Assembly: GCF_011769525.1 (NCBI RefSeq)
Contig: NZ_CP050440.1
Span: 2,667,501-2,731,500 of the forward strand
Source: Tolypothrix sp. PCC 7910
GTDB lineage: Bacteria; Cyanobacteriota; Cyanobacteriia; Cyanobacteriales; Nostocaceae
Direction: 5' to 3'
DNA length: 64,000 nt
Shown: positions 7,897-63,564 of the stretch, in pieces
Layout: each line of letters begins with the position of its first letter
Position numbering within the stretch: the stretch's first letter is position 1
The notes under the pieces: model-generated
What the model was told of the DNA's origin: nothing
Database searches by the model: none
The model's input: the letters and a program-made list of their open reading frames with translations, nothing else
Translations under genes and position numbers: made by a program

Positions 7897-7898
7897 TT

Positions 7899-45013: not shown

Positions 45014-45097
45014 TTACCTGGAAAATTCTATAACAGAATTTTCGTGATTAGTATCAGTTCTATTTTAGCTTTATATTTGTTTATGTATAATTTCGTC

Positions 45098-46324: not shown

Positions 46325-46390
46325 GTTTGGTAAATTCAGAAAATACTCAGTTGAAGCTGCAAGGTAAGAGGGTAAAAGACACTCATCAAA
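46325..46390 (-). pseudogene. Remnant of a TPR gene 3' end
   Basis: Reading left on the minus strand, FYPLTLQLQLSIF and a TGA parallel the endings CYRRALQFQPRIFGI and CYRRALQLQPRIF of the two UbiA-TPR genes. The DNA similarity includes the following AATTTACC. It shows that a third copy once ended here. Confidence 0.6.
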
Positions 46391-46852: not shown

Positions 46853-48607
46853 TTAAATTCCAAAAATTCTCGGTTGAAACTGCAAAGCGCGACGGTAACA
46901 GAGACTTGCTTCGTTAATCTGACCGCGTTCTGCTAAAATATCTCCCAAGTGTTTGTGCGATCGCGAGTCATCTGGATTTAACGCTATCGCACGTCGGTAA
47001 GCAGCGATCGCATCATCCCATTTCTGCTTTTTCTCTAAAACCTTTCCTAACTCCAAGTGGATTTCAAAGTTGTCTGGGTGAAATTGGAGGGCGGTTTGGG
47101 TTTGATTTTGGTGAAATTGAGATTCTGTTTGCGATTGTTGTAGTTGATTCTGAAGCTGTTCTAAGTAATTTTGGGTTTGATGAAGGCGAGAGTTCAATTG
47201 CGTTACTTCTGCTTGTACAGCATTCAATTGTGTTTGTAGGGATTGTAAGTTCTGTGGTTTACTTTGCAGGGATTGCACGAAGTTTTTTACTCGTTGTTCT
47301 ATACCTGGATAGAAAAGGATTGCTTGTAGCAAGAGCAATATTACAAACCATTTGTTTTGTAATGATAGAGTAGTTGCCAGAATCAGCGGCAATCCTACTT
47401 CGTAGAAGTCGTGAGGTACAACGTAGGATTTTTGAACGGGTGCTGGGTCGAAGGTAGATGTAGGGTCTAATTTGAAGAAGCTGATTTTTAATAGGAAATA
47501 GAAGATAGTGCAAACAAGAATTAAGGGCGTAGAGTTAGAGATAATTAGTATTACTAAACTGAGCAGCAGAAGTTCGAGCGGGAAGATAATGCGGCTCATC
47601 CAAAACCGAACTTTCTCGACATCAAATTCTGTCACAAGTGTGTTTACTCCGGATCTCAAATCATTGTATCGATCCCAAAGTTGGTGTAAGAGAATTCCTC
47701 GAACTCCAGCGAAAAATGACCATGCTGTTGCCGCGATCGCTAGCACTGTGCTTTGCAGTGGTGGTGAAGCAACCAAATGAGAAAAGGTTGTTGCCACAAA
47801 TAATGTAGGAATGGCGTGTGCGCCAGCCGCATCGCTAATGATTCCTAATATGCCTTTTTCCTTGAATCGAAAGGGAGGCGCGGAATATAAAGTGGGCAGT
47901 AGATAGTTAATGCCTAACAGCACTGTAGGTGAAGTGCCAAAGTTCATCACGATGGGCAATATAAATCCCAGCCCTGCCAAGACAAGGCAAAACAGAGCGC
48001 GTTGCCACGGTGAAAATTGAGTCATTGAGTTGCTTTTACCAACCTGTCGATCCCCTTCAATGTCAAAACTGTCGTTGATAATATGTCCGTAGGCTGCGAC
48101 ACACGCGATCGCAAATAGCAACGCAGATACAGTGAGAACCGATTGGAGGACATGGAGATCCAGTAAAAGAATTTCGGCATAAGCGATCGCTAGTAGAGGC
48201 GGAATTTTGTAGAGCCACCAGTCATGTGATCGAATGATTCTGAAAAACAGTAAAAGAGACTTCTTTTTCCCGCTATCAATCTCTTGCGCCTCACATACTT
48301 GGATTGTTTTTTCTTTCAGTTCTTGTTTTTCTCGATGTTCAGCACTAGCATCTAACAATTGATATCTGGCTAAAGCTTCTAGGCAAAATGCTGTTGTCAA
48401 CTCTGCGGAGCCATATATTGCTTTATCTGTATGACCACCATACAGAGGAATTCTTCTCCATGAACCATCAATCTGCTGAGTTTTGATTAAAAAGGTTATA
48501 GCTTTGCAAAAATCTGGTGAGTAATAGCCATAATTCAGCAAGGAACATATTGCCAAAGATGTTAATAGTTCATTGCCAAAAGAACCATCAGATTTTTGCA
48601 TATTCAA
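46853..48607 (-). CDS. UbiA-type prenyltransferase-TPR fusion (downstream part of a frameshifted gene)
   Basis: 584 residues from a TTG that is probably not a real start: the frame runs on upstream and matches the cyclase-like ORF at 48631-49284 after a one-base shift. Residues 1-~110 complete a prenyltransferase/squalene-cyclase repeat domain (KSDGSFGNELLTSLAICSLL, QQIDGSWRRIPLYGG). A UbiA domain (about 120-420) follows, with the first aspartate motif NDSFDIEGD at 178-186, LYSAPPFRFKEKG, DAAGAH and many helices. Then come a coiled coil and two to three TPRs. UbiA enzymes move prenyl groups onto aromatic, ring or sugar-phosphate acceptors at the membrane; the acceptor is not evident. About 517 bp (47101-47617) appear identical to the unit-2 gene. 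Confidence 0.85.
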   Translation of the reverse strand: MNMQKSDGSFGNELLTSLAICSLLNYGYYSPDFCKAITFLIKTQQIDGSWRRIPLYGGHTDKAIYGSAELTTAFCLEALARYQLLDASAEHREKQELKEKTIQVCEAQEIDSGKKKSLLLFFRIIRSHDWWLYKIPPLLAIAYAEILLLDLHVLQSVLTVSALLFAIACVAAYGHIINDSFDIEGDRQVGKSNSMTQFSPWQRALFCLVLAGLGFILPIVMNFGTSPTVLLGINYLLPTLYSAPPFRFKEKGILGIISDAAGAHAIPTLFVATTFSHLVASPPLQSTVLAIAATAWSFFAGVRGILLHQLWDRYNDLRSGVNTLVTEFDVEKVRFWMSRIIFPLELLLLSLVILIISNSTPLILVCTIFYFLLKISFFKLDPTSTFDPAPVQKSYVVPHDFYEVGLPLILATTLSLQNKWFVILLLLQAILFYPGIEQRVKNFVQSLQSKPQNLQSLQTQLNAVQAEVTQLNSRLHQTQNYLEQLQNQLQQSQTESQFHQNQTQTALQFHPDNFEIHLELGKVLEKKQKWDDAIAAYRRAIALNPDDSRSHKHLGDILAERGQINEASLCYRRALQFQPRIFGI

Positions 48608-48630
48608 GACTTTATTAACTATAAGTTTTT

Positions 48631-49284
48631 TTACATTTTTAAGAGAAAAACACCATTGTAGTATGCTTTTGAAAGCATATAGTAAAAGCTAAGTTCATGG
48701 TTATAAAATGGGGTAGAAGTAGCTTCTGTTTCTTTAAGTATTACTTGTACCAAATACTCAACCACTTTTTCAGTTTCTTTGATTTCACCTAGATAGAGTA
48801 GAACATTAGAGTTAACAAGACAGCAAATGTCATCCTCTTGGTTTATAATCCAAGAGTCATTTGAGTAAAGAACCTTTTTTCCGTCAACAGAAAGCAACCA
48901 CGTATTAAATATATTATTCTTGTTTCTATTATTTAAAATAATTTCTGTATTTTCTGGAAATGCAATGTTATTTATCTTGAGAATATGTGATATGCAGCAT
49001 ATGTCATCTAAGTCTGCTGGAATCATTCTGTCCTTCTCATTTTTTGATGACCAGTATCTCCATAGTCCTCCTTCTTCCATTTCATCAATCAGAAACTTTA
49101 ATCCCTGTTCTCGTAGCTTCTGGACTCTCTCATCTTCTTCTATAAAATTTAAAGAGTACAAGATAAGGGCGGTAGCAAAGGGAGAACTGTCAAAAGTCCA
49201 TTCTTCTACAATTTGCTCGAAGGAATCTTTATATCTGTTGCAAATTTCTGTTTTAAATTCTCCATAATCCAATTGGTTTTTCAA
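48631..49284 (-). CDS. Class-II terpene-cyclase-like alpha-toroid domain (upstream part of a frameshifted gene)
   Basis: 217 residues. DLDD at about residues 91-94, in PADLDDICC, resembles the DxDD acid motif of class II terpene / squalene-hopene cyclases; GGLWRYWSS resembles a QW repeat. The TTG start is doubtful: the same frame extends upstream through ISVNKGLDFLLKNQLDYGEF to a break at 49314-49317. At the other end it stops (FLLKM) at an A5 run (48636-48640 on +); one more A continues it as KNVKKLIVNKVLNMQKSDG into the UbiA part. It may be a true cyclase or an inactive toroid. Confidence 0.7.
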   Translation of the reverse strand: MKNQLDYGEFKTEICNRYKDSFEQIVEEWTFDSSPFATALILYSLNFIEEDERVQKLREQGLKFLIDEMEEGGLWRYWSSKNEKDRMIPADLDDICCISHILKINNIAFPENTEIILNNRNKNNIFNTWLLSVDGKKVLYSNDSWIINQEDDICCLVNSNVLLYLGEIKETEKVVEYLVQVILKETEATSTPFYNHELSFYYMLSKAYYNGVFLLKM

Positions 49285-49307
49285 TAAGAAATCTAAGCCT
49301 TTATTTA

Positions 49308-49388
49308 CGGATATTTTAGTTGGTTGCTATATTCATATACTCTTTTATCGTCCTCATCGTAAATCTCAAGTACATTCTGCTTGCCCAT
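49308..49388 (-). pseudogene. Leader fragment of the cyclase-UbiA gene, methyltransferase-like start
   Basis: An ATG at 49388 with AGGAG 7 nt upstream opens MGKQNVLEIYDEDDKRVYEY... and stops after about 26 codons. The first residues match MNKNDVLEIYDENYAQEYN, the start of the unit-2 methyltransferase. Adding one A in the A4 run (49314-49317 on +) joins it to TKISVNKGLDFLL and the toroid domain. This is therefore the likely true start of the composite gene. Confidence 0.6.
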
Positions 49389-50067
49389 AGGTTTCTCCTA
49401 GAATCATGCTCGGAGCAATCCTGCTCGTTCAAACTCTGCTATACAAGGGTTCCACCTTGCGTGAAGCAGTTGCCACCACAACTCTATACCAATTGCAGAA
49501 ATTAGGCGACAGATGTGCAAGAGTGGAGTGTTGCAGCTTGACTTTGTACTCGACATTCAGTACCTACACTGAAATTTTAGGGACACGCAGCAACCATTCT
49601 TAAATTAACTTTAGAAAATTACTTAATATGATGTAAGCGATTTGAGGGTGTTGAGAAGCGCGATATCCTGGTTGCCTGACACACCTACGTCAAACCTTTG
49701 ATTCTCGTAAAAGCCAAATTTCTCCAATACGGCAAGTCAAGGCTTTCAGCCAATCAAGCTATCCAAAAACGTGCTTGGATCTATGAATGGCAGAATGCAG
49801 ACATAGTAAGGCTTTGAGGTACTTGTATGAGGCAGTTAGCGCGATACTTTCGGTAAGTTAGTTTCGCTAACCCGTAAGATATTGATAAGGGTTAACATTG
49901 CTACAGTTGTTTGTTTTCTAAACTAAAATTAGGTAATTGTTTAGACGATTATATTTAGATTTTTTAATTTATGTGAATAAACGTTAAAAAGAAGTTCAAG
50001 CAATAATTCTCTTTGATTTTTACTCCAATTACTAAACAATCGTTCTTTACCTTAGAAAAGGCTGGTC
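49389..50067. other. Divergent promoter region of unit 1
   Basis: No intact gene. The part at about 49480-49590 (TATACCAATTGCAGAAATT ... CACTGAAATTTTAGGGACA) is similar to 55705-55810 in unit 2, so this control region was duplicated too. The part at about 49640-49820 looks like degenerate coding DNA that I could not assign. Confidence 0.55.
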
Positions 50068-50367
50068 ATGTATAACGTATTTTCGACAGCAGAGCTTCAA
50101 CAGGAACTAGAGCAGAATGGATATGTGGTGATTGATTTTCTTATTGAAAGTGAAGTACAAACCCTCCTCAACTTTTATCAAAGAAACTCTCTTCCAGAAG
50201 ATTTAGTAAAACATAGTGTATCTTTTAGCATACTTAGCTCTGATACTTCTTATAGGCAATTAGTTTCTTGTGAAATAAAAAATCTATTTGCTCCAAAATT
50301 AATAACTATATTTTCTGAATATAGAGGACTACTTTACAATTTTGCAACAAAAAAACGATCTGTATAG
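50068..50367 (+). CDS. PhyH-like dioxygenase N-terminus (frameshifted from the following CDS)
   Basis: 99 residues (MYNVFSTAELQQELEQNGYV, VIDFLIESEVQTLLNFYQ) that start a phytanoyl-CoA-hydroxylase-like domain. It ends in NFATKKRSV at an A7 run (50349-50355). Restoring one A gives NFATKKNDLYSAMSLHQDPP, in frame with the next ORF and colinear with the paralogue at 58043. Confidence 0.75.
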   Translation: MYNVFSTAELQQELEQNGYVVIDFLIESEVQTLLNFYQRNSLPEDLVKHSVSFSILSSDTSYRQLVSCEIKNLFAPKLITIFSEYRGLLYNFATKKRSV

Positions 50368-53263
50368 TGCAATGTCTTTACATCAAGATCCACCTTTAAT
50401 AAATAATACATTACTAAAAACTTTTGGAGTTTGGGTTCCACTCATAGATGTTAAGGAGCAGAACGGATGCCTTCAAGTTGTTAAAAGAAGCCACTTGCTT
50501 AATTCAAAAAACAGACCCTTTATTAGTATTAAAGAATTTAAATGTAGTCGTGAAGTTTTGACGAGCGTTCAGCAAAATTATCTCACCAGTATTCCTATGA
50601 AAGCAGGACAAGCACTGATATATGACAAACGCCTGTTTCACGGTTCGCCACCCAACTCAACAGCAGTTGAAAGAGTCGCTGCCATTTGTAGCCTCGTCCC
50701 TGAAAATATTTCAACCCATTTCTGTTACAGAGAATCCCCAAACTCCGACCAAATAGAAATATTTGAAGTAGACGATGAATTCTACAATACATACATCGGT
50801 GAAAAACCAGAAGGCGTTAAAAGTTTAGGCATCTCCGACTACGAAATCGAACCCCTAACCCCAGAAATCCTCATAGAAAAACTAGGAAAAAAAACTTCCT
50901 ATCCCAAACTCCCCCTATCAACCAATACCTCAATCAACTTCAACCCACAATTCCTAGAAAAACTCCCCCCATCCCCCCAAAAAATCGCTATCCTCGCCAC
51001 CAATGAATACGAAGGCATTTTCAGGAATGGGGGGATTGGCACTTACTACCAGACTTTGAGCCAGAAGCTGGCGGCAGAAGGTTGGTATGTGGTGTTGCTG
51101 CTTTGCCAGAGTCAACAGAAGTTTGGTGGGGATTCACATATCCCTGCACTCAAGCACATATTCTCAACCAGTGAATGCTTTGATGTCTTGAATCTACAGC
51201 CAATGCATCTAGCCATCCTATCTCAGTTCAAAGAGTGGGAATGGGTAGATTACGAGAACTATTGTGCCTTGTTTTTTGCTCAAGCGATCGCCTCTGCATT
51301 CAGTCGTTCATTTATCTACATTGAATTTCCAGAGACGCTAGGACTGGGATACTGTACAATTCAAGCTAAACGAGCAGGTGTTTTAGGAAAAAACTGTTCT
51401 ATTGCCGTCACCTTGCATAGCGGACAAGAGTGGCTTTATGAAGCTCATGGGAAGTACGCATCGCCTGTTGAAAGTTGGTATTTGCAGACTAGCCACTACG
51501 AACAATCTGCTTTTGAGCAGGCAGATTTAGCGTTCTTTCCCTCCTATTTCTTGAAAGCAAAAGTAGAAAGCTACGGTTGGAAAACAAACCATGCTTTACA
51601 CCTTCCTTACTTTATTCCTGAAATTGAACCCTTGCTGGAAAAACCAGAACCGTTGAGAGGGGATTTAAGGTTAGAGTTAAATCCTCACGGGATTCCAATA
51701 ATTTTCTTTGGACGGCTTGAAGAAAGAAAAGGATTGATGATGTTTATAGAAGCAATTAAATTATTGGATACTGACATTACTCAGAAAATTCAAATTATTT
51801 TCGTAGGCAAGACTGTTCAACTTCAGGTTGAGGAGCTTAAACATTTAGATAGCGAGCAGTACATTCGGCAGCAGTTAGACAATAACTACTCTTACAGTAT
51901 TATTTCTGACTTGTATAGCCAAGAAGCTATTGGGTTTATTAATCAGCTAAATCATCCTATTGTTTGTCTAACCAGTCATCAAGAAAACTTTCCCAATGCA
52001 GCGCTGGAGATGGGACAGTTGCCTGTTAATTTGGTAGTTTCAGATACTGGCGGGTTTCGAGAAGCGTTGAATCTGATTGAGCGCAAGCAAGGCATTCATT
52101 GGTTTACACCAAGCGATGCACGCTCTTTGATGCAAAGTCTCAAGATAGCAATCTCTACCTACTCAGAAACTCCATCGATTCCAAGCCAAGACTCAATTTA
52201 TAAGACGAATCAATTACTGCTGTTGCGGCGACTTAAATACTTAAACCTAGTAATTCGCCAGTCAAAAATTATTAATTCTAATAGTCGTAATGGTCAGCCA
52301 TCCTCTCAATCGTTGCAGAGATTAGTTGAGCTAGAAAAACCTCAAGATTACCTTTCAGAAGTAGATAAGGAATTGTTTCCTATAGCTTCTGATAAGTTAA
52401 GCATGTTGTCATTTGAGGAGCGCTCTTACCTTCAGAATTATACCAAGTATGAGTACACAGGAAGTGGAGAAATTGTAGATCTAGGGTGCTGGCTTGGCTC
52501 ATCAACTATTCCTTTAGCAATGGGACTAAATGATAATTCAAAAGTGGATTCAAAAGAAGAACGCATTCATGCTTATGATATTTTTGTTTGGGAACCATAC
52601 ATGAACAAACACCTGAATGATACTTCTCTAGAAGGAAAGTATCAAGATGGGGATAGCTTTGTTGAAGAGTTTATCGAGCGAATTCATCCTTGGAATCATC
52701 TAATTCAAGTTTATCCAGGCGATCTTAACCGAATTGGTTGGGACAAACATCCGATTGAATTTCTCTTTATTGATGCCATGAAGAGTTGGGAGTTAGCAAA
52801 CAGCATTCTCAGGAACTTTTTCCCATCATTAATTCCGGGACTATCGCTGGTGGTTCATCAAGACTTCGCTCATTTTTATGAAGTTTGGATTCACCTAATT
52901 ATGTATCGCTTACGAGATTATCTAGTCCCGCTTGAAGACCATCCTTTTCTTTATAGTTCAAAGGTGTTTCGATACATTAAGGCTATTCCAGAAGAATTAC
53001 TACAAAACTTTTATTCCTTAGCTTCTTTCTCAGAAGAGGAAGCTGAAGCGGCTTTCGATTATTCACTGGCTATAACGCCGAAGAGGATGAAATCGAATGT
53101 TGCAGCAGTCAAGGTAATGTATTTTATTCAAGTTGGCAATGTAGAACGAGCAAAACTAGAACTGAGCCAAGCTAGAGCGAAGTACGAGCGTTCAGAGTGG
53201 TCGGATTTGGTTGATGTTGAAGAATGGTTGGAGCGTGCTAACTGGTTCAAACAATATCGTTAG
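50342..53263 (+). CDS. PhyH-like dioxygenase - GT4 glycosyltransferase - SAM methyltransferase-like fusion
   Basis: 973 residues in this frame. Residues 1-~160 finish the PhyH-like fold: Fe ligands His and Asp of LHQDPP and the distal His in DKRLFHGSPPNS. A family-4-like glycosyltransferase follows (about 210-650): IGTYYQTLSQKL near 230, FFGRLEERKGL near 450, SHQENFPNAALEMGQLP near 545. The last ~270 residues have DLGCWLGSSTIP near 715 and FLFIDAMKSWE near 805, resembling class I methyltransferases acting on sugars. It probably builds or modifies a surface glycan in the cytoplasm. Confidence 0.85.
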   Translation: MQQKNDLYSAMSLHQDPPLINNTLLKTFGVWVPLIDVKEQNGCLQVVKRSHLLNSKNRPFISIKEFKCSREVLTSVQQNYLTSIPMKAGQALIYDKRLFHGSPPNSTAVERVAAICSLVPENISTHFCYRESPNSDQIEIFEVDDEFYNTYIGEKPEGVKSLGISDYEIEPLTPEILIEKLGKKTSYPKLPLSTNTSINFNPQFLEKLPPSPQKIAILATNEYEGIFRNGGIGTYYQTLSQKLAAEGWYVVLLLCQSQQKFGGDSHIPALKHIFSTSECFDVLNLQPMHLAILSQFKEWEWVDYENYCALFFAQAIASAFSRSFIYIEFPETLGLGYCTIQAKRAGVLGKNCSIAVTLHSGQEWLYEAHGKYASPVESWYLQTSHYEQSAFEQADLAFFPSYFLKAKVESYGWKTNHALHLPYFIPEIEPLLEKPEPLRGDLRLELNPHGIPIIFFGRLEERKGLMMFIEAIKLLDTDITQKIQIIFVGKTVQLQVEELKHLDSEQYIRQQLDNNYSYSIISDLYSQEAIGFINQLNHPIVCLTSHQENFPNAALEMGQLPVNLVVSDTGGFREALNLIERKQGIHWFTPSDARSLMQSLKIAISTYSETPSIPSQDSIYKTNQLLLLRRLKYLNLVIRQSKIINSNSRNGQPSSQSLQRLVELEKPQDYLSEVDKELFPIASDKLSMLSFEERSYLQNYTKYEYTGSGEIVDLGCWLGSSTIPLAMGLNDNSKVDSKEERIHAYDIFVWEPYMNKHLNDTSLEGKYQDGDSFVEEFIERIHPWNHLIQVYPGDLNRIGWDKHPIEFLFIDAMKSWELANSILRNFFPSLIPGLSLVVHQDFAHFYEVWIHLIMYRLRDYLVPLEDHPFLYSSKVFRYIKAIPEELLQNFYSLASFSEEEAEAAFDYSLAITPKRMKSNVAAVKVMYFIQVGNVERAKLELSQARAKYERSEWSDLVDVEEWLERANWFKQYR

Positions 53264-53286
53264 GTTAGTTGATGCTAGAAAATGAT

Positions 53287-53443
53287 GAAGCAGGCTGTCA
53301 TCGAGTCGGTTTCTGTGAAAATGCGATCGCCTTTGGCGCTTCACTCCGCGCGATCGCATCAGTATTTGCCTCAAGAAATCTCAGTTCCGAAACGAGCCAT
53401 CATTCTTAAACACTTCCAGTTGATTTGTTATTTTTGGTTAAAT
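53287..53443. repeat. Repeat matching 46.69-46.85 kb
   Basis: Same block as at 46690-46852, with HIP1 sites flanking a different core. It lies between the stop of the unit-1 glycosyltransferase fusion and the stop of the unit-2 UbiA gene, marking the junction of the segmental duplication. Confidence 0.6.
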
Positions 53444-55603
53444 TCAAAAAATTCTCGGTTGAAGCTGCAAAGCGCGACGGTAACAGAGACTTGCTTCGTT
53501 AAGCTGACCTTGTTCTGCTAAAATATCTCCTAAGTGTTTGTGCGATCGCGAGTCATCTGGATTTAACGCGATCGCACGTTGGTAAGCAGCGATCGCCTCA
53601 TCCCATTTCTGCTCTTTTTCTAAAGCCTTTCCTAACTCCAAGTGGATTTCAAAATTATCTGGGTGATATTGGAGTGCTGTTTGATTTTGGTGAAATTGAG
53701 ATTCTGTTTGCGATTGTTGTAGTTGATTCTGAAGCTGTTCTAAGTAATTTTGGGTTTGATGAAGGCGAGAGTTCAATTGCGTTACTTCTGCTTGTACAGC
53801 ATTCAATTGTGTTTGTAGGGATTGTAAGTTCTGTGGTTTACTTTGCAGGGATTGCACGAAGTTTTTTACTCGTTGTTCTATACCTGGATAGAAAAGGATT
53901 GCTTGTAGCAAGAGCAATATTACAAACCATTTGTTTTGTAATGATAGAGTAGTTGCCAGAATCAGCGGCAATCCTACTTCGTAGAAGTCGTGAGGTACAA
54001 CGTAGGATTTTTGAACGGGTGCTGGGTCGAAGGTAGATGTAGGGTCTAATTTGAAGAAGCTGATTTTTAATAGGAAATAGAAGATAGTGCAAACAAGAAT
54101 TAAGGGCGTAGAGTTAGAGATAATTAGTATTACTAAACTGAGCAGCAGAAGTTCGAGCGGGAAGATAATGCGGCTCATCCAAAACCGAACTTTCTCAACG
54201 CCAGATTCTGTAACTAGCGTTTTAACATCAGTTTGCAAATCGTTTTTCCTATCCCAAAGTTGATGCAGGAGAATTCCTCGGATTCCTGCACAAAATGACC
54301 ATGCTGTTGCCGCAATAGCCAGGATAATAGATTCTGGTTGTGGTGATGCACTCAAGTATAAAAAAGTGGTAACAACAAACAAAGTCGGGATGGCGTGCGC
54401 TCCTGCTGCATCGCTAATTACCCCCCATATACCCTTTTCTTTTAATCGCAAGGGAGGTGCAGAGTAAAGGGTTGGTAGCAGGTAGTTGATTGCTAGTAAT
54501 ATGATTGGCAATCTGCCGAAATTCATTAGAATTGGCAGCATAAAACCTGTGATTAAGAACGCTATGCAAAATAAAATGCGCTGTATTGATGAAAATCGAG
54601 CTATAGAATTTCTCTTGCCTGCTATCTGGTCTACTTCGATGTCGAAAATATCATTAACAATATGTCCATAAGCTGCTACACAAGATATGGAGAATAACAA
54701 AGCTGATATAGTTAATATTGATTGGATAGCGGGGAGACTCATCAAAATTATTTCCCCATAAGCAATAGCCAGTAAAGGCGGTATTTTATAAAGCCACCAG
54801 TTACCTCCTCGAATAATTTTGGAAAAAGATGAAAACAATCCTGTTGATCTGCTTTCACCCACCACTTCGGCTTCAAGGGTATGTTTTTGTTTTTTGGAGC
54901 GAGCAACTATGGCTTTTCTTTGACTTCCTTTAAATAAGGGATATTCAATAATTTCTACTTGCTCAAAGTGTTTTTTAAATAGAGCAAGCATATATTCTAG
55001 TTGTGGAGCTAAGAGATTTAGATGCTGTTTTCTCGACTCTTCATCGATCCAACTCCAAATTACTCCTTCAAACTGGTAAAAACCCCCACCTTCACCCATA
55101 TCTTTGCTGATGTAAGGAAGTTTTAGTTCACCAGTTCCTAACTCAGCAGGATCGCAAATTGGCAGAAAACAAACGCCTTGTTCAGATGTCCAACTTGCGA
55201 AGTTTTCAACGACTTTTTCTAGTTCTGACAACGACTCTACATAAGAGTAAGCCCACCACATACAGGACACCAGATCCCATTGTCCTTCCCACTGCGGACG
55301 TTTATCTCTATAGTCACCCTGAACAAATAAAGTATTTGGATTTCCTTGCTTGGCAAGCTTGAGCATTGCAGGCGAAATATCCAGTCCTGCTCTTTCTACA
55401 TTTGGAAAGCGACTTAGAAAGTAACCTGTACCACAGGAAACATCCAACCACTTTGCTTCTTTACCGATTTCGTTCAAAAGATTACTAATGACCTTCTGCT
55501 CAAAATCCGCATTCTTTTTCGACTTTTCATTCAGAAGAAACCTCTGATTATATTCTTGAGCGTAGTTTTCATCGTAGATTTCAAGTACATCATTTTTGTT
55601 CAT
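53444..55603 (-). CDS. SAM methyltransferase-UbiA prenyltransferase-TPR fusion
   Basis: 719 residues from the ATG at 55603, chosen because GGGAAAAG precedes it and unit 1 keeps the matching start; the open frame extends 20 codons further. Class I methyltransferase at 1-~245: WLDVSCGTGYFLSRF near 52, GLDISPAMLKLA near 72. UbiA at about 285-580 with NDIFDIEVD as first Asp motif and LYSAPPLRLKEKG. Then a coiled coil (LNAVQAEVTQLNSRL) and TPRs to the end (AIAAYQRAIALNPDDSRSHK). The C-terminal half shares about 517 bp (53680-54196) apparently identical to unit 1. Joining methyl and prenyl transfer suggests one lipid-linked acceptor. Confidence 0.9.
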   Translation of the reverse strand: MNKNDVLEIYDENYAQEYNQRFLLNEKSKKNADFEQKVISNLLNEIGKEAKWLDVSCGTGYFLSRFPNVERAGLDISPAMLKLAKQGNPNTLFVQGDYRDKRPQWEGQWDLVSCMWWAYSYVESLSELEKVVENFASWTSEQGVCFLPICDPAELGTGELKLPYISKDMGEGGGFYQFEGVIWSWIDEESRKQHLNLLAPQLEYMLALFKKHFEQVEIIEYPLFKGSQRKAIVARSKKQKHTLEAEVVGESRSTGLFSSFSKIIRGGNWWLYKIPPLLAIAYGEIILMSLPAIQSILTISALLFSISCVAAYGHIVNDIFDIEVDQIAGKRNSIARFSSIQRILFCIAFLITGFMLPILMNFGRLPIILLAINYLLPTLYSAPPLRLKEKGIWGVISDAAGAHAIPTLFVVTTFLYLSASPQPESIILAIAATAWSFCAGIRGILLHQLWDRKNDLQTDVKTLVTESGVEKVRFWMSRIIFPLELLLLSLVILIISNSTPLILVCTIFYFLLKISFFKLDPTSTFDPAPVQKSYVVPHDFYEVGLPLILATTLSLQNKWFVILLLLQAILFYPGIEQRVKNFVQSLQSKPQNLQSLQTQLNAVQAEVTQLNSRLHQTQNYLEQLQNQLQQSQTESQFHQNQTALQYHPDNFEIHLELGKALEKEQKWDEAIAAYQRAIALNPDDSRSHKHLGDILAEQGQLNEASLCYRRALQLQPRIF
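53680..54196 (-). repeat. Apparently identical duplicate tract (partner 47101-47617)
   Basis: By eye I find no difference over about 517 bp, while DNA on both sides is clearly diverged. It covers the end of the UbiA domain and the coiled coil. This is the pattern of recent gene conversion between paralogues. Confidence 0.8.
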
Positions 55604-55889
55604 AGTCTTTTCCCAAATAGCGGTATTGTAGCGATCATGTCCTGTTTTGCAATATCGCTGCACAAAATTTTTAGCTTTCTTTAATTGTTTGATACCGCAA
55701 GTTTATACCAATTGCAAAAATTCAAGTGACCGCTAGGTAAGTGCTGAGTATCAAAAGATGAGTTTTGCTACATACTCAGTATTTAGCATCTACGCTGAAC
55801 CCTCAGAAATGCGTAGAAATCAGTATTAAATTCATTTAAATAGAAAATAATTTAAGATTCTTTACAGAGTAGACAGTAATTTCACTGAG
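55604..55889. other. Upstream region of the unit-2 UbiA gene
   Basis: It resembles the unit-1 upstream region (TATACCAATTGCAAAAATT, then ATTTAGCATCTACGCTGAA). Nothing else was recognised; the IS4-like remnant starts at its right end. Confidence 0.5.
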
Positions 55890-56213
55890 AACACCTCTTA
55901 TTCTTATATTACTTCTGTTCTTGAACCACAGATTTTACCTCCTTACGTTGTTGCTGATTTATACCGTCATAGATGGAGAATTGAAGAGGCTTTCCACACG
56001 GTCAAACGATTACTAGGCTTATCTTATTTATGGACTGGTTCTATTAATGGTATTAAATTACAAGTTTGGGCTACTTGGCTATTTTATGCGGTATTAGTTG
56101 ACTTAGGTGACGCAGTTGCTGACGAATTATCTCTACCTTTTGACCGCATTTCTGTAGAGATGATTAGACACGTCCGGAATATGAATTGGGTACAAAAAAA
56201 TGGTAGAAAGTAA
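55890..56213 (+). pseudogene. IS4-type transposase C-terminal remnant
   Basis: About 100 codons without a start: VLEPQILPPYVVADLYRHRW, then RIEEAFHTVKRLLGLSYLWTGS, ending VQKNGRK and TAA. The Y..RW.IEE.F...KRLLG block is the C-terminal catalytic-Glu (YREK-like) region of IS4-family transposases. The N-terminal two thirds and left end are missing. Confidence 0.8.
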
Positions 56214-56241
56214 AATTGACCCTCTACCAAAATTTAATTAA

Positions 56242-57153
56242 ATGATTAGTATATTTGATTATATACAAAAGTATCCACGAAGAGCAAAGCAACTTTTGGG
56301 GATTAATTATGACCAATTTACTGACCTTGTAAACTATGCTAAAAACAGTCATGAAGAAGAACAACTCAAATTGGAACAGAAGAAAGTTAGAATACATCGT
56401 CGTGGAGGTGGACGCAAAGAATTATTATCCATCCCAGAACAAGTATGTTTGTGCTTGTTTTATCTGAGACAAATACCCACATTTGAAGTTTTAGGAATAA
56501 TGTTTGGTATATCAAAAACTTTATCTAATGATACTTTTCATTACTGGAGAAAAATATTACGTAAGATTCTCCCTTCTAGTTTAATAGAGCAAGTAGAAAA
56601 TAAAGAAGGAGATTTGCTCATTATACAAGAAATATTAACGAATTTTAAGTTGCTAGTTGATAGCGTAGAACAGCCTATAGATAGACCATCTGACAACGAA
56701 GAACAGAAAAAGTTCTTTTCGGGAAAGAAAAAACAGCATACTATAAAAAACCAGATAGTTTCCTTGCCAGAGGGAAAAGATATTATTGATGTTACAGTAG
56801 GCTCTCCAGGGCCAACAGCAGACATAAAATTATTTAGAGAGCAACAAACAAAATTTGATGAAAAACAAGAATTTACGGGAGATAAAGCGTATCAAGGTGG
56901 GAATAATATTACTACCCCTCATAAGAAGAAAAGAAAACAACAATTAAATGAACAACAAAAAGAAGAAAATAAAGCTCTATCAAGTAAGCGTATATTTGTT
57001 GAGCATTTAATACGTATTGTAAAAATTTTCCAAGTGGCATCACAAAGATTTAGATTAAATGCTGATGTTTATAATGAAATAGTTTTGTTAGTTTGTGGTC
57101 TAGTAAGACTGCGAATTGGCACTTTCGTATTACCGAATAGCGCCATAAATTAG
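56242..57153 (+). CDS. IS5-like / DDE_Tnp_4 transposase
   Basis: 303 residues, apparently full length. Helix-turn-helix-like QVCLCLFYLRQIPTFEVLGIMFGIS near 70-95. DDE candidates: Asp in LLVDSVEQPID near 139, Asp in TGDKAYQGG near 213 and Glu in RIFVEHLIRIVKIF near 250. It starts 29 bp after the IS4 remnant, in the divergent promoter region of unit 2. I could not identify its terminal inverted repeats. Confidence 0.88.
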   Translation: MISIFDYIQKYPRRAKQLLGINYDQFTDLVNYAKNSHEEEQLKLEQKKVRIHRRGGGRKELLSIPEQVCLCLFYLRQIPTFEVLGIMFGISKTLSNDTFHYWRKILRKILPSSLIEQVENKEGDLLIIQEILTNFKLLVDSVEQPIDRPSDNEEQKKFFSGKKKQHTIKNQIVSLPEGKDIIDVTVGSPGPTADIKLFREQQTKFDEKQEFTGDKAYQGGNNITTPHKKKRKQQLNEQQKEENKALSSKRIFVEHLIRIVKIFQVASQRFRLNADVYNEIVLLVCGLVRLRIGTFVLPNSAIN

Positions 57154-58042
57154 TATCAATTAAAAATTGTGTTTGCGTTAGGCAAGATTATGTATTTTTC
57201 TGCTCTAAACTATCAGTAACTATATCAAACACTTATTGTTCCATTGCAACAGAATCTGCAAGGACTGGTCTCAAAGCCTTGTAAATATAGGCTTGCGAGT
57301 TTTCGGACGGGTCTATTTATCGCGGACTTTATCATTTTAGTGTTGCCCATGACAAAGGCAAGGCTGATGATCCGATTAAATACTTTGCTGCAAAAGAGAA
57401 TCAAGATTTAGGAGTAGTCAAAGCCCTCCGAAAACCAGTCCCCAAGCTAAATTTGTCCCCTTTTTTCGCACCCCCTTGACAAATCTGCCATTTCCTTAAC
57501 CTCTCACAGGTGACTCTTTGTTTTCATTGCTGGAAGTGCGATCGCGATCGCGATCGCTCTAGCTTTTGCGTCCAACTATCACTCTTATTCTTCGCATTTT
57601 CTGATAGGCAATGCGAGCGCTCAATCAACTTCAGTATAATTACTTATTGTTCATCTTTCTAAGTTCGGATATTCTGATCGCCAGCTTGTTGTTTGGGCAA
57701 GTTTGCGATCGTATTGCACTACCATGAACCTGTTATCCGTATATTTCCTGACATTCACTATCAATCCATCAATACTCTTTCTCCAAGAGAGATAGTTGTT
57801 TTCGCTACCCTGGCGAAGATTAGCAAATATAAAGAAATACCTTTGAAATAGAGGTTTTGGGGAGTGAAAGTATAGAATATCAGGCATTTACTGCGTAACT
57901 TACTTCTGAGGTAGCCTACCTTACCTGAGTTCACAAGGATAATAGCTGTTTTAAAATCACCTAAGCAGCATCGTCAAAATTACGTAGTTAATTTTTGTAT
58001 TAATTTTTTTAATAAAAAACAGAATTATATAATTAAACGCTG
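57154..58042. other. Intergenic region with debris and triple HIP1
   Basis: A frame at about 57306-57480 (GSIYRGLYHFSVAHDKGKAD, then DPIKYFAAKENQDLG..., ending FFAPP and stop) looks like a fragment of a larger unidentified gene. Three overlapping HIP1 octamers lie at about 57540-57557. The last ~140 bp should include the unit-2 glycosyltransferase promoter. Confidence 0.5.
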
Positions 58043-58372
58043 ATGATTAAGCAAGAACTTGAAGAGAATGGGTATGCAGTCATAGATTTTCTTAGTCAAA
58101 CTGAAGTACAAAGTCTGCTCAACTTTGATAAAAACTCTCCTTTTCCTCAAAATCTATTAGCTGCGGGGATGACTTTTAGCATAAATACATCAGACTTAGC
58201 ATACCGAACGCTACTTACTCAGGAAGTAAAAAAGTATTTTGCTCAAAAATTAGCAATTTTATTTCCTGAATATAGAATAATGCTTTGTAATTTAGTTTTT
58301 AAAAGTCCTGACGTTTTATCTAGCGAAATGCCTCTAAATCAAGACCCATCTTTAGTAGAGAGACATTTCTAA
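58043..58372 (+). CDS. PhyH-like dioxygenase N-terminus, unit 2 (frameshifted)
   Basis: 109 residues (MIKQELEENGYAVIDFLSQT...), paralogous to 50068-50367. It ends PLNQDPSLVERHF and stop. Adding one T to TTT at 58366-58368 gives VERHFLKSFGVWCPLMDVDEQNG, exactly colinear with INNTLLKTFGVWVPLIDVKEQNG in unit 1. The iron-ligand His of HQD is Asn here (NQD), so the domain is probably inactive even if the frame is restored. Confidence 0.75.
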   Translation: MIKQELEENGYAVIDFLSQTEVQSLLNFDKNSPFPQNLLAAGMTFSINTSDLAYRTLLTQEVKKYFAQKLAILFPEYRIMLCNLVFKSPDVLSSEMPLNQDPSLVERHF

Positions 58373-58395
58373 AATCATTTGGAGTATGGTGTCCT

Positions 58396-61300
58396 TTGAT
58401 GGATGTAGATGAGCAAAATGGCTGTCTTCATATTGTCAAAAAAAGTCATTTACTCAATTCAAAACCAAGACCATTTTGGGCTTTTGACGGCTTTCCCTAC
58501 AGTCAAGATATTTTATCACTGATGCAACAAAAATATCTGATCAGTGTTCCCATGAAAGCCGGACAAGCACTGATATATGACAAGCGACTTTTTCATGGTT
58601 CGCCACCCAATACAACTACTTTTACAAGAATCGCAGCTATATGCAGCTTAGTTCCTCAAAATATCTTGACTCATTTTTGTTACAGAGAGTCACTAACCTC
58701 AAACAAGCTAGAAGTATTTGAGGTAGAGGATGAATTTTACGATCACTACACTGTCGGTCAAAAACCAGAAGGCGTGAAAAGTTTAGGTGTCTCTAATTAT
58801 GAAGTTGAACCAGTAACACCAGCACTACTTGTAGAAAAACTAGAAACACAAAATTTATATATGAAATCTCCTAATTCAATCAACTTTGAAATTAACTTTA
58901 AGCCGCAACTTTTAGAAAAACTTAACTCATCCCCTCAAAAAGTAGCAATCCTCGTCAGCAATGAATTTGAAGGATTTTCTCGAAATGGGGGAATAGGTAC
59001 TTATTACACAACCTTAAGTCAAAAACTAAAATCTGATGGCTGGTACGTCATTCTACTGCTTTGTCAAACTGAAACTGATTTTCAAGGAGAAGCCAGTTTT
59101 CCTAATGTAGATTGCGTCTTCTCTACTCATGAAATAGAACAGGTTTTAAATCTCCAACCTATTCATCATCAAATTTTATCTACAACTCAGCAAGATAAAA
59201 TCAGCAATAGCTTTGACTATGAGAATTTTTCTTGCCTATTCTTCACTCAAGCAGTTGTAAACACCTTCTCAGATGCAGTCATATATATAGAATTTCCTGA
59301 AATTTGGGGATTTGGCTACCGTACAATTCAAGCCAAACAAACTGGACTTTTAGGTAACAGTTGTCTAATTGGTGTCACTTCTCATGGTTCCTTTGAATGG
59401 TTGCGAGAAGTAAATAGCCAACACACTACAGAATTACCTCAATGGTTCTGGAAAGATTACCACTACGAACAATTCTCCTACGAAAACGCCGATATCACTT
59501 ATTTTCCTTCTTACTTCCTCAAATCAAAACTAGAAAGCTACGGCTGGAAAACCTCTCACGCCAAACATTTACCTTATTTTCTACCAATTCTAGAACTACC
59601 AATTACCAATCAAGAAATAATTCAGCTAGATTCTGCCAAAATCCCCCTCATCTTTTTTGGTCGTCTTGAAGAACGAAAAGGACTCTGCACTTTTATAGAA
59701 GCAATTAAATCATTAGAATCTACCTTAGTTAATAAAATTCAAATTATATTTATCGGTAAAATTATTCCCCTACAATCATCTCAATTCCAACATTTAAACA
59801 GTCAGGAATATATTCAACAACAACTGGGTAACTACTTTAATTACCACCTATTATATGATTTATCTAGTCAAGCAGCAATTCAATTCATCACCGCACTAAA
59901 ACAGCCAATTGTTTGCCTCACTAGCCTACAGGAAAACTTTCCGAATGCAGCGCTAGAAATGGGACAATTACCTGTGAGTTTAATTGTTTCAGATACAGGA
60001 GGATTTAGCGAAACCTTAAACTTAATTGAACGTGCTGATGGTGTGCGTTGGTTTGAAGCTGGAAATTTTCATGCCTTAACTCAAGCTATCATACAAGCCA
60101 TTCATAACTATCCAGAAAACCCATCCACTCCTCAACAAGATTTATTAGAAAAAATCAATCAACGCTTATTAAACCAGAAATTAGAATACATGAGCCAAGC
60201 CTTTATAGACGCAGCACCCAAAGCACCTCAAACTCCAAAAGTAACTATTGGAATTACCTGCTTACAACCAACTTTAACCTTATTAGAATGCTTAGAAAGC
60301 CTAGATAAACAAACTTATACTAACTTTGATGTCATTGTTTTATATATTTCCTCTTCAAGCAATGAAGTCATAGAAAATCTCATCATTCAAGCGCAAACCA
60401 AATATCCTAACTATAAATACTTAAGTACAGAAGCTAATAGAAGTTTAGGAGAAACTTATAACTACCTAGTAGATTTGGCAGATGGGGAATACTTTATCCA
60501 ATTTTCACCAGAACAAATAGCTTTACCATTGATGGTAGAAAAGCTAGTTACAGCAGCTTGGGAGGCTAATGCAGATATAGTGGTGTGTCCGCAAGCCACA
60601 ACTAAAGAAGGAGAAGCAGTAGAAACCCTTACTTTGATTGATGGCTGTTTGCTCAACCTGTTAGAATTTAACTACAATCGGGATATCTCTGCATTATTTT
60701 CCCTGAAACTGCTCAAAGAGTTCCCCTATTCGTCAGAAAGAGGATTGTTAGCACTCAATTGGCAGATTTTAGCAGCTGCGATCGCCACTGACAAACCCAT
60801 TGCTTACTATCCCTACCCTCTCTATCTCACTCACAGCCCTTCCCACACCATCATTACTCCAGCCAATCTTGCCAAAGAACGTTACTACCTACGTCAATAC
60901 TTATTCCAAATTGAGCCATCTAAGTGGAATCAGCGTCAACTCAATCTGCTGCTGACAGGTGTTGAACAACTCTTGCAATCAAAGCAGCAAGTATCCACCA
61001 ATATTCAACAATTATCTCCCCAGTCCCAAGCTTGGATGCTCACTGCACAGCAAATTCAAGACGAACTCACACATATACAATCTTGGAACCAACAACTACT
61101 AGCCGGAAAAGATTGGTTAGAAGCACAATGGCAATCTTGGATGCTGAAAGCACAAAAAGCAGAAGTCGAGGTAGAAAAAAGACAGCTTACCATCAACACA
61201 ATGCAAAGTAGTCGCTTTTGGCGACTCCGCAATAGTTGGATTAAATTCAAACAAAGATTAGGAGTCAAAAATGCCGATCGACTTCAGCTAGCATCGCAAG

Positions 61301-63564
61301 TTTATGCCGATTCTCGCATTCGTGATTTAGTGACTCTCATCGCCACTCGCAAAATTAAATACTTCCAAGCTGAACCTTCCCCAACTCCTGTCGTTTCGAT
61401 TATCTCTTCCTTTTTCAACGACTATCTATATTTTGAAACCACTTATCGCAGCATTATCAATCAAACCTTCCAAAACTGGGAATGGATTATTGTTGACGAC
61501 GCTTCAACTCATCCCGATGCAGTAGCATTCATTCAATCCTTACCAGAAAGAACCAAGAAAATTAGAATTAGTTTCCATACTACCAATCAAGGCGTAGCCG
61601 CAGGTAGAAATACTGCGATCGCCCAAGCGCAAGGTAAATATCTATTTTTTATCGATATGGACGACATTATCGACCCTACATACATCGAAAAATGCGTCCT
61701 CTTCCTAGAAACCCATCCAGAATTTTCCTTAGTTAACTCCTACGCCGTTGGCTTTCAAGCAGAAGAATATTGGTGGAATCGCGGCTTGAGTAAGCCTAGT
61801 GCATTTTTTGCCGCCAATCAAGTCACAGGTCGATTGCTTTATCGAAAATCAGACTTTAATCAACTGGGGGGATTCGATCCAGAAAAAAGCTTAAACCCCT
61901 ATGCAGATTGGGAACGGTGGTTGAAAGCAATATCCAATCACCAAAAAGGATGGACAATTCCAGAATACTTGGACTGCTATCGTCGTACCACTTCTGGGAT
62001 GCTTGCAACCTTTTTGCATAACAGTACAGAAGTCAAACGTGTCACTGAGTTAATCCAGTCTCGCTATCGGGACTTTTTTACTCATACCCCTCCCCAAGAT
62101 ATTTATCTCAACCGCCACTCTTTTGAATCTAACCAAATTCAGTTAAAAATTCCAGTTACAAACACCCTCACTCGCTACAATTTTGGGAAACGCATTCTAT
62201 TTTTCTTCCCTTTTCTAGAAGTTGGTGGATCTGACAAATTTAACTTAGATTTATTAACTTTATTAGAACAACGTGGTTACGACATTACTATCGCCACCAC
62301 CTTAAAATCCGAACATACTTGGCATCAACACTTCTACCAAATTACACCAGATATTTTTCACCTCCCCAACCTTTTAGATCGAGTTCACTGGTTAGCCTTT
62401 AGCCGCTACATTATTGAATCACGCCAAATTGATATTTTCGTTATTTCTAACTCCTACATCGCTTATTACTTCTTACCCCTACTTCGTGCCGAATTTCCTC
62501 AAGTTGCTTTTATTGACTATACCCACACCTGCGACCCTGGTTGGCGAGGTAACGGCTATCCTAGAGTTTCTTGTCAATTTAGTCGCTTCCTCGATTATCA
62601 GGTTGTTTCTTCTCAACATCTTGCCAAACTTTATCAAAGTATAAATCCCAAAATTAGTGCTAAGTTGAAAGTTTGCTATACCAGTATTGATACAAATAAA
62701 TGGCAACCAAATCTGCAAAAACGTAACGAACTCCGTTCTTGGTTGTGTGTATCAGAACAAACTGTTGTGATATTATTCCCTGCGAGAATAGTCGAGCAAA
62801 AACGTCCTTTATTTTTATTAGAAATTATTAAAGAATTAGAAAAAAAATCTCTTCAAATTTCACTAATTATTTTAGGAGAAGGTCATCTTCTCCCAGCCAT
62901 GAAAACCAAAATTAGTCAACTTGGTTTAGATTCGATTTGTCGAATTTTACCGACCGTTGACTCCGAACAAATGCTGAAATTTTACTCGGCTGCTGATATC
63001 TTTCTACTACCTTCAGAATACGAAGGAATTTCTCTGGCAACTTATGAAGCTATGTCAATGGAATTACCTGTAGTAGCCGCTGATGTTGGTGGACAAAAAG
63101 AATTAGTGACACCGGAAACTGGATTTTTGATAGCTAAAGGAAATAGTGATGCCGCAGAAGTACAAGAGTATGTCAATGTTTTGGTGGCACTCATTCAAGA
63201 CCCATCTTTACGCCGTCAAGTAGGAGTAGCTGCACGTCAGCGAGTTGGGGATTTATTTCCGTTAGATGCAATGGCCAAGCAGATGGAGATGATTTTTGCT
63301 GATGCTATTAAAGCACGCCAAATTCAACCCCAACCTGTAATTAATAGTCAAACAGAAACTGAAACTTTATTACTCGCACTTGAGTATATGCAAGAGACTG
63401 TTACAGAATCCCAGCCTCAATCAGATAGAGTGCAAATTTATAGTGAACCTACAACGAAACAACTCTTAATTTCTCTTTTAAGAAAGCTCAAAAAATATCA
63501 TACGCTTAAAGGCTTATTTTGGCTTTCAAGCAGATTCAGATACACAATCAAATCATTACTTTGA
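58396..63564 (+). CDS. Giant glycosyltransferase fusion: PhyH remainder-GT4-GT2-GT2-GT4
   Basis: 1722 residues. Residues 1-~130 finish the PhyH-like domain (DKRLFHGSPPNTT). First GT4-like domain about 170-610 (GGIGTYYTTLSQKL, FFGRLEERKGL, LQENFPNAALEMGQLP). First GT2-like domain about 615-830 (VTIGITCLQPTLTLLECLES). A helical coiled linker follows to about 980. Second GT2 about 1000-1240 (VSIISSFFNDYLYFETTYRS, IIVDDASTHPD, FIDMDDIIDPTY). Second GT4 about 1270-1640 (PARIVEQKRPLFLLE, LPSEYEGISLATYEAMSMELP). It could add several sugars in one polypeptide. The next GT starts 29 bp on. Confidence 0.9.
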   Translation: MMDVDEQNGCLHIVKKSHLLNSKPRPFWAFDGFPYSQDILSLMQQKYLISVPMKAGQALIYDKRLFHGSPPNTTTFTRIAAICSLVPQNILTHFCYRESLTSNKLEVFEVEDEFYDHYTVGQKPEGVKSLGVSNYEVEPVTPALLVEKLETQNLYMKSPNSINFEINFKPQLLEKLNSSPQKVAILVSNEFEGFSRNGGIGTYYTTLSQKLKSDGWYVILLLCQTETDFQGEASFPNVDCVFSTHEIEQVLNLQPIHHQILSTTQQDKISNSFDYENFSCLFFTQAVVNTFSDAVIYIEFPEIWGFGYRTIQAKQTGLLGNSCLIGVTSHGSFEWLREVNSQHTTELPQWFWKDYHYEQFSYENADITYFPSYFLKSKLESYGWKTSHAKHLPYFLPILELPITNQEIIQLDSAKIPLIFFGRLEERKGLCTFIEAIKSLESTLVNKIQIIFIGKIIPLQSSQFQHLNSQEYIQQQLGNYFNYHLLYDLSSQAAIQFITALKQPIVCLTSLQENFPNAALEMGQLPVSLIVSDTGGFSETLNLIERADGVRWFEAGNFHALTQAIIQAIHNYPENPSTPQQDLLEKINQRLLNQKLEYMSQAFIDAAPKAPQTPKVTIGITCLQPTLTLLECLESLDKQTYTNFDVIVLYISSSSNEVIENLIIQAQTKYPNYKYLSTEANRSLGETYNYLVDLADGEYFIQFSPEQIALPLMVEKLVTAAWEANADIVVCPQATTKEGEAVETLTLIDGCLLNLLEFNYNRDISALFSLKLLKEFPYSSERGLLALNWQILAAAIATDKPIAYYPYPLYLTHSPSHTIITPANLAKERYYLRQYLFQIEPSKWNQRQLNLLLTGVEQLLQSKQQVSTNIQQLSPQSQAWMLTAQQIQDELTHIQSWNQQLLAGKDWLEAQWQSWMLKAQKAEVEVEKRQLTINTMQSSRFWRLRNSWIKFKQRLGVKNADRLQLASQVYADSRIRDLVTLIATRKIKYFQAEPSPTPVVSIISSFFNDYLYFETTYRSIINQTFQNWEWIIVDDASTHPDAVAFIQSLPERTKKIRISFHTTNQGVAAGRNTAIAQAQGKYLFFIDMDDIIDPTYIEKCVLFLETHPEFSLVNSYAVGFQAEEYWWNRGLSKPSAFFAANQVTGRLLYRKSDFNQLGGFDPEKSLNPYADWERWLKAISNHQKGWTIPEYLDCYRRTTSGMLATFLHNSTEVKRVTELIQSRYRDFFTHTPPQDIYLNRHSFESNQIQLKIPVTNTLTRYNFGKRILFFFPFLEVGGSDKFNLDLLTLLEQRGYDITIATTLKSEHTWHQHFYQITPDIFHLPNLLDRVHWLAFSRYIIESRQIDIFVISNSYIAYYFLPLLRAEFPQVAFIDYTHTCDPGWRGNGYPRVSCQFSRFLDYQVVSSQHLAKLYQSINPKISAKLKVCYTSIDTNKWQPNLQKRNELRSWLCVSEQTVVILFPARIVEQKRPLFLLEIIKELEKKSLQISLIILGEGHLLPAMKTKISQLGLDSICRILPTVDSEQMLKFYSAADIFLLPSEYEGISLATYEAMSMELPVVAADVGGQKELVTPETGFLIAKGNSDAAEVQEYVNVLVALIQDPSLRRQVGVAARQRVGDLFPLDAMAKQMEMIFADAIKARQIQPQPVINSQTETETLLLALEYMQETVTESQPQSDRVQIYSEPTTKQLLISLLRKLKKYHTLKGLFWLSSRFRYTIKSLL

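Follow-up and report, generated by a model that had tools for sequence, protein, structure and literature searches.

Among the described systems closest to the locus examined here are terpenoid pathways with a class II cyclase. The substrate that MstE cyclises in the merosterolic acid pathway of Scytonema is geranylgeranyl-dihydroxybenzoate, whose chain has been attached to the acceptor beforehand (PMC9401909 and the titles of PDB entries). The HAD-TCbeta drimenol synthase AsDMS yields a free alcohol, and the middle Asp of its DxDTT motif is essential (PMC9128629, in the sections available). MstE is a precedent for cyclising an acceptor-bound chain, and AsDMS for cyclising a free diphosphate. 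A further cyclase, AstC, forms no product when D271, T274, N324 or Y361 is changed, and the role of the acid is given to D273 (PMC13244436). HAD-TCbeta enzymes have been proposed to derive from a standalone TCbeta enzyme (PMC12365925, partial text).

Prenyltransferases of the UbiA superfamily occur in other settings as well. In the tolypodiol cluster, UbiA lies amid MEP and quinone-type genes, and the accessible part of that account (PMC8073705) gives no sign of the architecture described below, so that the cluster was rejected as a match. For glycan export, the ABC pathway is named in the available part of PMC8205485.

The locus studied here is read as one copy, local and partly decayed, of a bacterial system that recurs and in which meroterpenoid-type chemistry is tied to a sulfated glycan cluster, a reading with a probability of roughly 0.5. 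The enzyme classes involved (UbiA, TCbeta, PhyH, methyltransferase, glycosyltransferase, sulfotransferase, APS kinase, and exporter) are well supported by sequence comparison; the order of steps, the acceptor, and the product are inferred.

The window and its genes

The window is the whole stretch of 64,000 nucleotides analysed, from Tolypothrix sp. PCC 7910. It contains two units, each with a leftward and a rightward gene (Table 1). The initial annotation described the leftward genes as UbiA-coiled coil-TPR proteins with a variable amino-terminal domain, and the rightward genes as PhyH-GT4 proteins with a variable carboxyl-terminal domain. Pfam bears out these forms: UbiA and TPR domains in both left genes; PhyH together with GT4 in each right gene; and a SAM methyltransferase ahead of UbiA in unit 2. 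The unit 2 right gene continues with GT2 and GT4 domains, and the unit 1 right gene ends in a weak Methyltransf_24 match (E 3.5e-4, below the Pfam cut-off). The annotated neighbours were also found, with PAPS supply and exporter genes at 39804-42564 and sulfotransferase genes at 43577-46324; an ABC-2 permease and a Wzt_C-bearing ATPase together form a Wzm/Wzt-type pair (40409-42564, Pfam). The leftward and rightward open reading frames first described are present (46853-48607 and 53444-55663, minus; 50342-53263 and 58396-63564, plus), but three of the four genes are frame-broken and their open reading frames are incomplete.

Table 1. Positions, strands, and profile or other evidence for features of the window and for five fusion genes of related loci
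Feature	Position	Strand	Evidence
APS kinase (PAPS supply)	39804-40358	+	Pfam APS_kinase E 8.6e-66
ABC-2 permease, Wzm/Wzt-type exporter pair	40409-41209	+	Pfam ABC2_membrane E 2.9e-12
ABC ATPase with Wzt C-terminal domain	41206-42564	+	Pfam ABC_tran E 3.9e-21, Wzt_C E 3.2e-11
TPR-sulfotransferase	43577-45013	+	Pfam Sulfotransfer_1 E 1.9e-19 and TPR
TPR-sulfotransferase	45098-46324	-	Pfam Sulfotransfer_1 E 9.6e-19 and TPR
Unit 1 left gene, main piece: C-terminal end of TCbeta toroid, UbiA, coiled coil, TPR	46853-48607	-	Pfam UbiA E 1.6e-14, TPR
Unit 1 left gene, second piece, other frame: main TCbeta toroid with PADLDD	48631-49284	-	TOR profile 294 bits
Unit 1 left gene, N-terminal piece, third frame, 27 codons	49305-49388	-	
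Unit 1 right gene, N-terminal PhyH part, frame break after	50068-50367	+	
Unit 1 right gene, main piece: remaining PhyH (LHQD, FHGSPPN), GT4, methyltransferase-like domain	50342-53263	+	Pfam PhyH E 9.7e-15, Glycos_transf_1 E 8.7e-12
Unit 2 left gene, unbroken: SAM methyltransferase, UbiA, coiled coil, TPR	53444-55663	-	Pfam UbiA E 6.7e-15, TPR
Transposase-like remnant, unit 2 divergent gap	about 55872-56213		Named by eye
IS5-like transposase, unit 2 divergent gap	56242-57153	+	Pfam DDE_Tnp_4 E 1.5e-33; NCBIfam IS5 below cut-off
Unit 2 right gene, N-terminal PhyH part (LNQD), frame break after	58043-58372	+	
Unit 2 right gene, main piece: remaining PhyH, GT4, GT2, GT2, GT4	58396-63564	+	Pfam
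P450-TCbeta fusion, about 720 aa, locus L029	7683-9845		
P450-TCbeta fusion, about 720 aa, locus L030	7690-9852		
P450-TCbeta fusion, about 720 aa, locus L107	9132-11312		
P450-TCbeta fusion, about 720 aa, locus L108	9286-11439		
P450-TCbeta fusion, about 720 aa, locus L109	8303-10477		

Elsewhere in the window, NRPS/PKS genes at 3-19622 (minus strand) encode condensation-adenylation-PCP modules with a TubC docking domain, KS-AT-MT-ACP, a 3291-aa open reading frame, and a separate AMP-binding enzyme; they are probably a lipopeptide-type cluster. A chorismate pyruvate-lyase (Rv2949c-like; 27041-27739, plus strand), about 20 kb from the UbiA genes, would supply 4-hydroxybenzoate; in cyanobacteria it presumably serves plastoquinone. 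Overlapping open reading frames at 37583-38708, ahead of the APS kinase gene, encode a BRO-N domain protein and an AlkB-type 2OG-Fe(II) oxygenase.

Frame breaks

The unit 1 left gene is divided into three pieces in three frames, all on the minus strand. Its toroid domain, which the initial annotation had described as the first part of the leftward gene, is split across frames: most of it lies in another frame (48631-49284), and the UbiA-bearing frame retains a TOR profile match at residues 15-121. The PhyH domain of each right gene is likewise divided. Only the methyltransferase-UbiA-TPR gene of unit 2 is unbroken.

Frameshift errors throughout the genome are an unlikely cause. Open reading frames average 309 aa and cover 0.75 of the sequence in seven stretches taken from elsewhere in this genome (G000), resembling three comparison genomes (G318, G170, and G184; means of 253-319 aa, coverage 0.73-0.78). 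With frame lengths normal elsewhere, the breaks are better explained by decay at this locus than by a fault in the sequencing as a whole; a local sequencing or assembly error is possible.

The toroid is a predicted terpene cyclase

The window toroid has no Pfam hit. Matches to SQHop_cyclase_C in its intact relatives are weak, although one exceeds the cut-off for that family. A P-x-D-x-D motif is invariant in 12 aligned relatives and is present in the window piece, and the relatives contain QW-like repeats. Among solved sequences, the best match of the TCbeta profile is AsDMS (E 7e-16 and 1e-14), followed by squalene-hopene cyclase (2e-5) and AstC (6e-4). The DxDD motif aligns on DLDTT (DxDTT) of AsDMS, and invariant residues N217 and Y251 of the relatives are candidate counterparts of AstC N324 and Y361, judged by spacing and by the AsDMS alignment. 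MstE is absent from the 29 solved sequences matched by the profile at E<=10.

A structural model was made for one relative, from the Chloroflexi locus L028 (pLDDT 67, pTM 0.74), and recovers the alpha-alpha barrel fold of the beta domain. Its top Foldseek rows are class II cyclases: 8pak, 6ij1 (an Actinoplanes protein), AsDMS, and MstE. The similarity is moderate (TMq 0.5-0.6, rmsd 5-8 A), and some glycosidase barrels appear at weaker E. The link between MstE and TCbeta is thus one of fold only. By sequence and modelled fold together, the toroid is a predicted single-domain class II terpene cyclase (TCbeta), in keeping with the terpene-cyclase-like DxDD toroid first proposed. (Pectate lyase, PF09492, scores above cut-off in two relatives, but the match spans about 30 residues only and was rejected.)

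UbiA and PhyH domains

Both window copies of UbiA, which score above the Pfam cut-off, keep the two aspartate motifs NDxxDxxxD and DRxND. The left genes are therefore well supported as encoding predicted UbiA-superfamily prenyltransferases; the prenyltransferase residues whose loss would have counted against this assignment are present in both. A model of the whole unit 2 left protein (mean pLDDT 54, pTM 0.41) is usable only for the UbiA and TPR parts, and its UbiA part resembles AfUbiA (Foldseek E 3e-6).

The two PhyH domains, each frame-broken, differ in one motif. Unit 1 retains LHQD and FHG; unit 2 reads LNQD, with Asn at the position of an iron-binding His. The unbroken GT2-type partner gene of another locus (L036, 13164-17975) likewise reads LNQD. 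Judged by this motif, the PhyH domain of the GT2-type partner gene is perhaps non-catalytic.

Origin of the two units

The initial annotation described a tandem duplicated module. The duplicated repeats themselves are real: near their 3' ends, the left genes share about 400 nt at 100% identity. The UbiA-coding stretch preceding this tract is only 59-80% identical, which marks the tract as a likely conversion tract, through which the 3' part was recently homogenised. In addition, the two UbiA-TPR genes carry a 58-nt repeat at their 3' ends (46849-46906 and 53434-53491), with a third copy (46326-46383) directly upstream of the start of a sulfotransferase gene; it is a trace of recombination between TPR genes.

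The duplicated control region stands in part. The two left genes have similar upstream DNA (49475-49629 versus 55694-55858; 0 of 200 shuffles were as good), whereas the two right genes do not (84 of 200 shuffles were as good).

Phylogeny rules out a plain tandem duplication of the divergent pair. A tree of 18 GT4 domains separates, with 100/100 support, nine followed by a methyltransferase-like domain (unit 1 included) from eight followed by GT2 (unit 2 included); one row carried neither label. The two types occur together in G318, G383, G219, G170, G143, and G156, so the window right genes form an old pair and, on this evidence, are two anciently distinct paralogues. In the UbiA tree, unit 1 groups not with unit 2 but with L026 and L027 (Stenomitos and a Leptolyngbyaceae MAG; 100/99). 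As judged from the alignments and tree, the left genes are copies that have diverged from each other, apart from a 3' part made alike by recent homogenisation.

Recurrence in cyanobacteria

Relatives of the window UbiA domains (E<=1e-20) occur in 18 of 388 genomes of the cyanobacterial order, and the PhyH-GT4 query matches 24 (E<=1e-60), in many cases over the GT4 part only. GT4 is present in 14 of the 18 genomes with UbiA versus 10 of the 370 without (Fisher p 3e-16, kinship ignored); 10 of the 24 GT4-bearing genomes therefore lack UbiA. A window-type GT4 lies within about 11 kb of UbiA, on the same contig, in 12 of the 18 UbiA genomes (G000 included). As for the other six, G142 and G152 contain only distant UbiA relatives, UbiA lies at a contig end in G137 and G194, and GT4 is located elsewhere in G133 and G184. 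A phylum-wide search matched 5 of 386 genomes, all already among the UbiA genomes of the order.

Neighbourhoods were counted for 18 loci of about 20 kb each, from 17 genomes; the window and L047-L049, with distant UbiA, were left out. These loci contain PhyH (13), sulfotransferase (14), GT4 (11), Wzm/Wzt (7), TCbeta (7), and left-type methyltransferase (10), each of which was found in 0 of 20 control stretches (drawn from four genomes, with score thresholds set by the analyst). The poorest loci are L034, L043, and L044; L044 has none of the counted features, and both it and L034 start at contig ends. Fusions of PhyH with GT4 adjoin UbiA in L031, L036, and L026 (the last cut by a contig end), so the arrangement recurs beyond the window. 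In L035, L037, L038, L040, L041, and L042, PhyH is fused to UbiA instead. (Beside the UbiA locus L032 of G318, a weak GDSL-like gene and a carbamoyltransferase gene at 10586-15000 are possible further glycan decorations.)

TCbeta matches occur in 11 of 388 genomes, G016 included. Among the ten whose neighbourhoods were read, eight have TCbeta beside or fused to UbiA, and two, G043 and G083, show no UbiA in the stretch read (about 20 kb). The weak TCbeta relatives of L110-L113 have no UbiA in the stretch read.

Exchange of domains

Many genomes combine these parts in differing ways, and the modular system first suggested emerges strengthened. Single proteins have the orders MT-UbiA-TPR, MT-UbiA-PhyH, PhyH-UbiA-TCbeta-TPR, TCbeta-UbiA, UbiA-TCbeta-PhyH-TPR-MT, and PhyH-UbiA-TCbeta-PhyH-TPR. 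On the UbiA tree the TCbeta label changes at least four times over well-supported branches, which indicates that the step beside UbiA was swapped repeatedly; one swap, between L039 (TCbeta) and L040 (methyltransferase), falls inside a single genus. G184 and G133 encode UbiA, TCbeta, and PhyH by neighbouring genes that are separate or almost so, and at a second locus UbiA lies between two TCbeta genes. It is plausible that the separate TCbeta genes are living relatives of the proposed standalone TCbeta enzyme, found beside their likely partner.

Other phyla

Related loci exist outside the cyanobacteria. In the Chloroflexi MAG locus L028, a run of genes starts with an ABC ATPase, whose Wzt_C match is weak, and goes on with UbiA, two P450s, TCbeta, three sulfotransferase-like genes (one above and two below the Pfam cut-off), and GT4; the gene ahead of the ATPase has no Pfam hit and scores only 40 bits to the window permease. 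TCbeta matches were found in 3 of 201 genomes of this phylum; in two of them (G715 and G867) they are weak, and no UbiA occurs in the stretch read. In the Flavobacteriales order (of G670), TCbeta occurs in 5 of 46 genomes. All five carry it fused behind a P450 domain and adjoining UbiA, and the stretches read also contain genes for PhyH, AsnB-like proteins, and an ABC exporter.

A model and its rivals

These observations suggest a general model. UbiA would shift a prenyl chain from its diphosphate onto an acceptor at the membrane, and TCbeta would then protonate the end of the chain and cyclise it. Where a methyltransferase takes the place of TCbeta, the chain would stay linear and gain a methyl group. 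PhyH (or P450, in other phyla) would hydroxylate; GT4 and GT2 enzymes, with the sulfotransferases, would assemble and sulfate the sugar part; and the ABC exporter would move the conjugate outside. The TPR tails may keep the enzymes together. The prenylated, possibly sulfated surface glycan of the initial annotation is inferred; where TCbeta occurs, "cyclised terpenoid" fits better than "prenylated".

Several features weaken this reading. TCbeta and exporter genes are each found in 7 of 18 cyanobacterial loci within about 20 kb; 10 of the 24 GT4 genomes lack UbiA, and weak TCbeta relatives occur without UbiA in the stretch read (L110-L113); three of the four window genes are broken, and the unit 2 PhyH has Asn for an iron-binding His. 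The frame breaks, together with normal frame lengths outside the locus, might instead mean that the window set is a decaying mosaic without function, held together by recombination between TPR-coding repeats. The transposase within the unit 2 gap, the identical 400-nt stretch next to diverged sequence, and the 58-nt repeat shared with a sulfotransferase gene would all suit such a mosaic, which is nevertheless very improbable: UbiA-bearing relatives in other genomes are open frames of up to 1573 aa, the window MT-UbiA-TPR gene is intact, and the broken frames may reflect a local assembly error.

Two other proposals concern the product. A small secreted terpenoid glycoside, saponin-like, would have sugar as decoration and not as scaffold: TCbeta would act at the outset, cyclising a prenyl diphosphate in the manner of drimenol synthase; UbiA would transfer the cyclised group or act as a UbiA-type terpene synthase; oxygenases would hydroxylate; and glycosyltransferases and sulfotransferases would decorate the terpene. 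AsDMS, the nearest solved sequence relative, does act on FPP, and P450s and PhyH beside UbiA and TCbeta suit terpene tailoring. Four or more GT domains, however, suit a polymer, as does Wzt_C in the ATPases of the window, L028, L036, and L045. Moreover, the stretch read contains neither UbiA nor TCbeta nor PhyH at some GT4/sulfotransferase loci (L114, L115, and L117, in G001, G320, and G223), which makes the terpene likelier as an addition to the glycan than as its scaffold and points to a glycan that exists independently of it. The glycoside seems unlikely. Alternatively, UbiA might make a special lipid carrier or membrane anchor that TCbeta and PhyH modify, the exported chain itself bearing no terpene. 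DPPR and DGGGP synthases make lipid precursors, known ABC pathways export lipid-linked glycans, and the solved UbiA folds closest to the low-confidence model are AfUbiA and archaeal DGGGP synthases. Fold likeness says little about the acceptor, however, and the comparison is one-sided, as no aromatic, ChlG, or MenA UbiA is among the matches listed; we also know of no precedent for a cyclised carrier lipid. This possibility seems quite unlikely.

A broader reading is offered tentatively and as rather doubtful: that at least three phyla make exported terpene-bearing polysaccharides, by means of UbiA and a terpene cyclase in a glycan cluster, and that cyanobacterial strains swap the domains of the scaffold proteins. 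If so, a terpene-carrying exported polysaccharide would add a class to the known surface glycoconjugates, and in cyanobacteria the terpene-tailoring step would be exchangeable by recombination between giant scaffold proteins. Methyl, acetyl, phosphate, and sulfate groups are among the decorations known from bacterial surface glycans; a genome-encoded terpene on a glycan would represent a different cell-surface chemistry and a route to terpene-sugar conjugates. The fusions tie UbiA, terpene cyclase, oxygenase, methyltransferase, and (via PhyH) glycosyltransferase to one pathway, independently of expression data.

Comparison with known systems

No described system with the same architecture was found in the open-access literature, most subscription journals being outside its scope. 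Within that literature, searches found neither UbiA combined with Wzt and sulfotransferase, nor UbiA combined with PhyH, sulfotransferase, glycosyltransferase, and terpene cyclase in cyanobacteria, nor a described prenylated or terpenoid polysaccharide.

The ebo operon offers a likeness in EboC, a UbiA-superfamily enzyme present in cyanobacteria, but it is a six-gene operon of other families, and EboC was compared by description only (PMC5133447, in its accessible part). Cyanobacterial clusters for sulfated exopolysaccharides (synechan, xss) similarly place sulfotransferases among many glycosyltransferases. Unlike the window, xss is of the Wzx/Wzy type, and the words UbiA, prenyl, and terpen are absent from its main text. 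AsDMS and AstC are among the closest solved TCbeta sequences, with DxDD falling on DxDTT; in the TCbeta domains described here, however, the fused or neighbouring partner is UbiA or P450, where those synthases have a HAD phosphatase. The merosterolic acid pathway shares a single-domain class II cyclase fold through MstE, although MstE does not match the TCbeta sequence profile at E<=10. To our knowledge, that pathway has no TPR fusion, glycosyltransferase, sulfotransferase, or Wzm/Wzt.

Each kind of enzyme is already known. The open-access literature yielded no counterpart for UbiA with a single-domain terpene cyclase within ABC-exported, often sulfated glycan clusters, nor for the exchangeable fused proteins. 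The UbiA-TCbeta loci would set the logic of meroterpenoid synthesis inside a glycan cluster.
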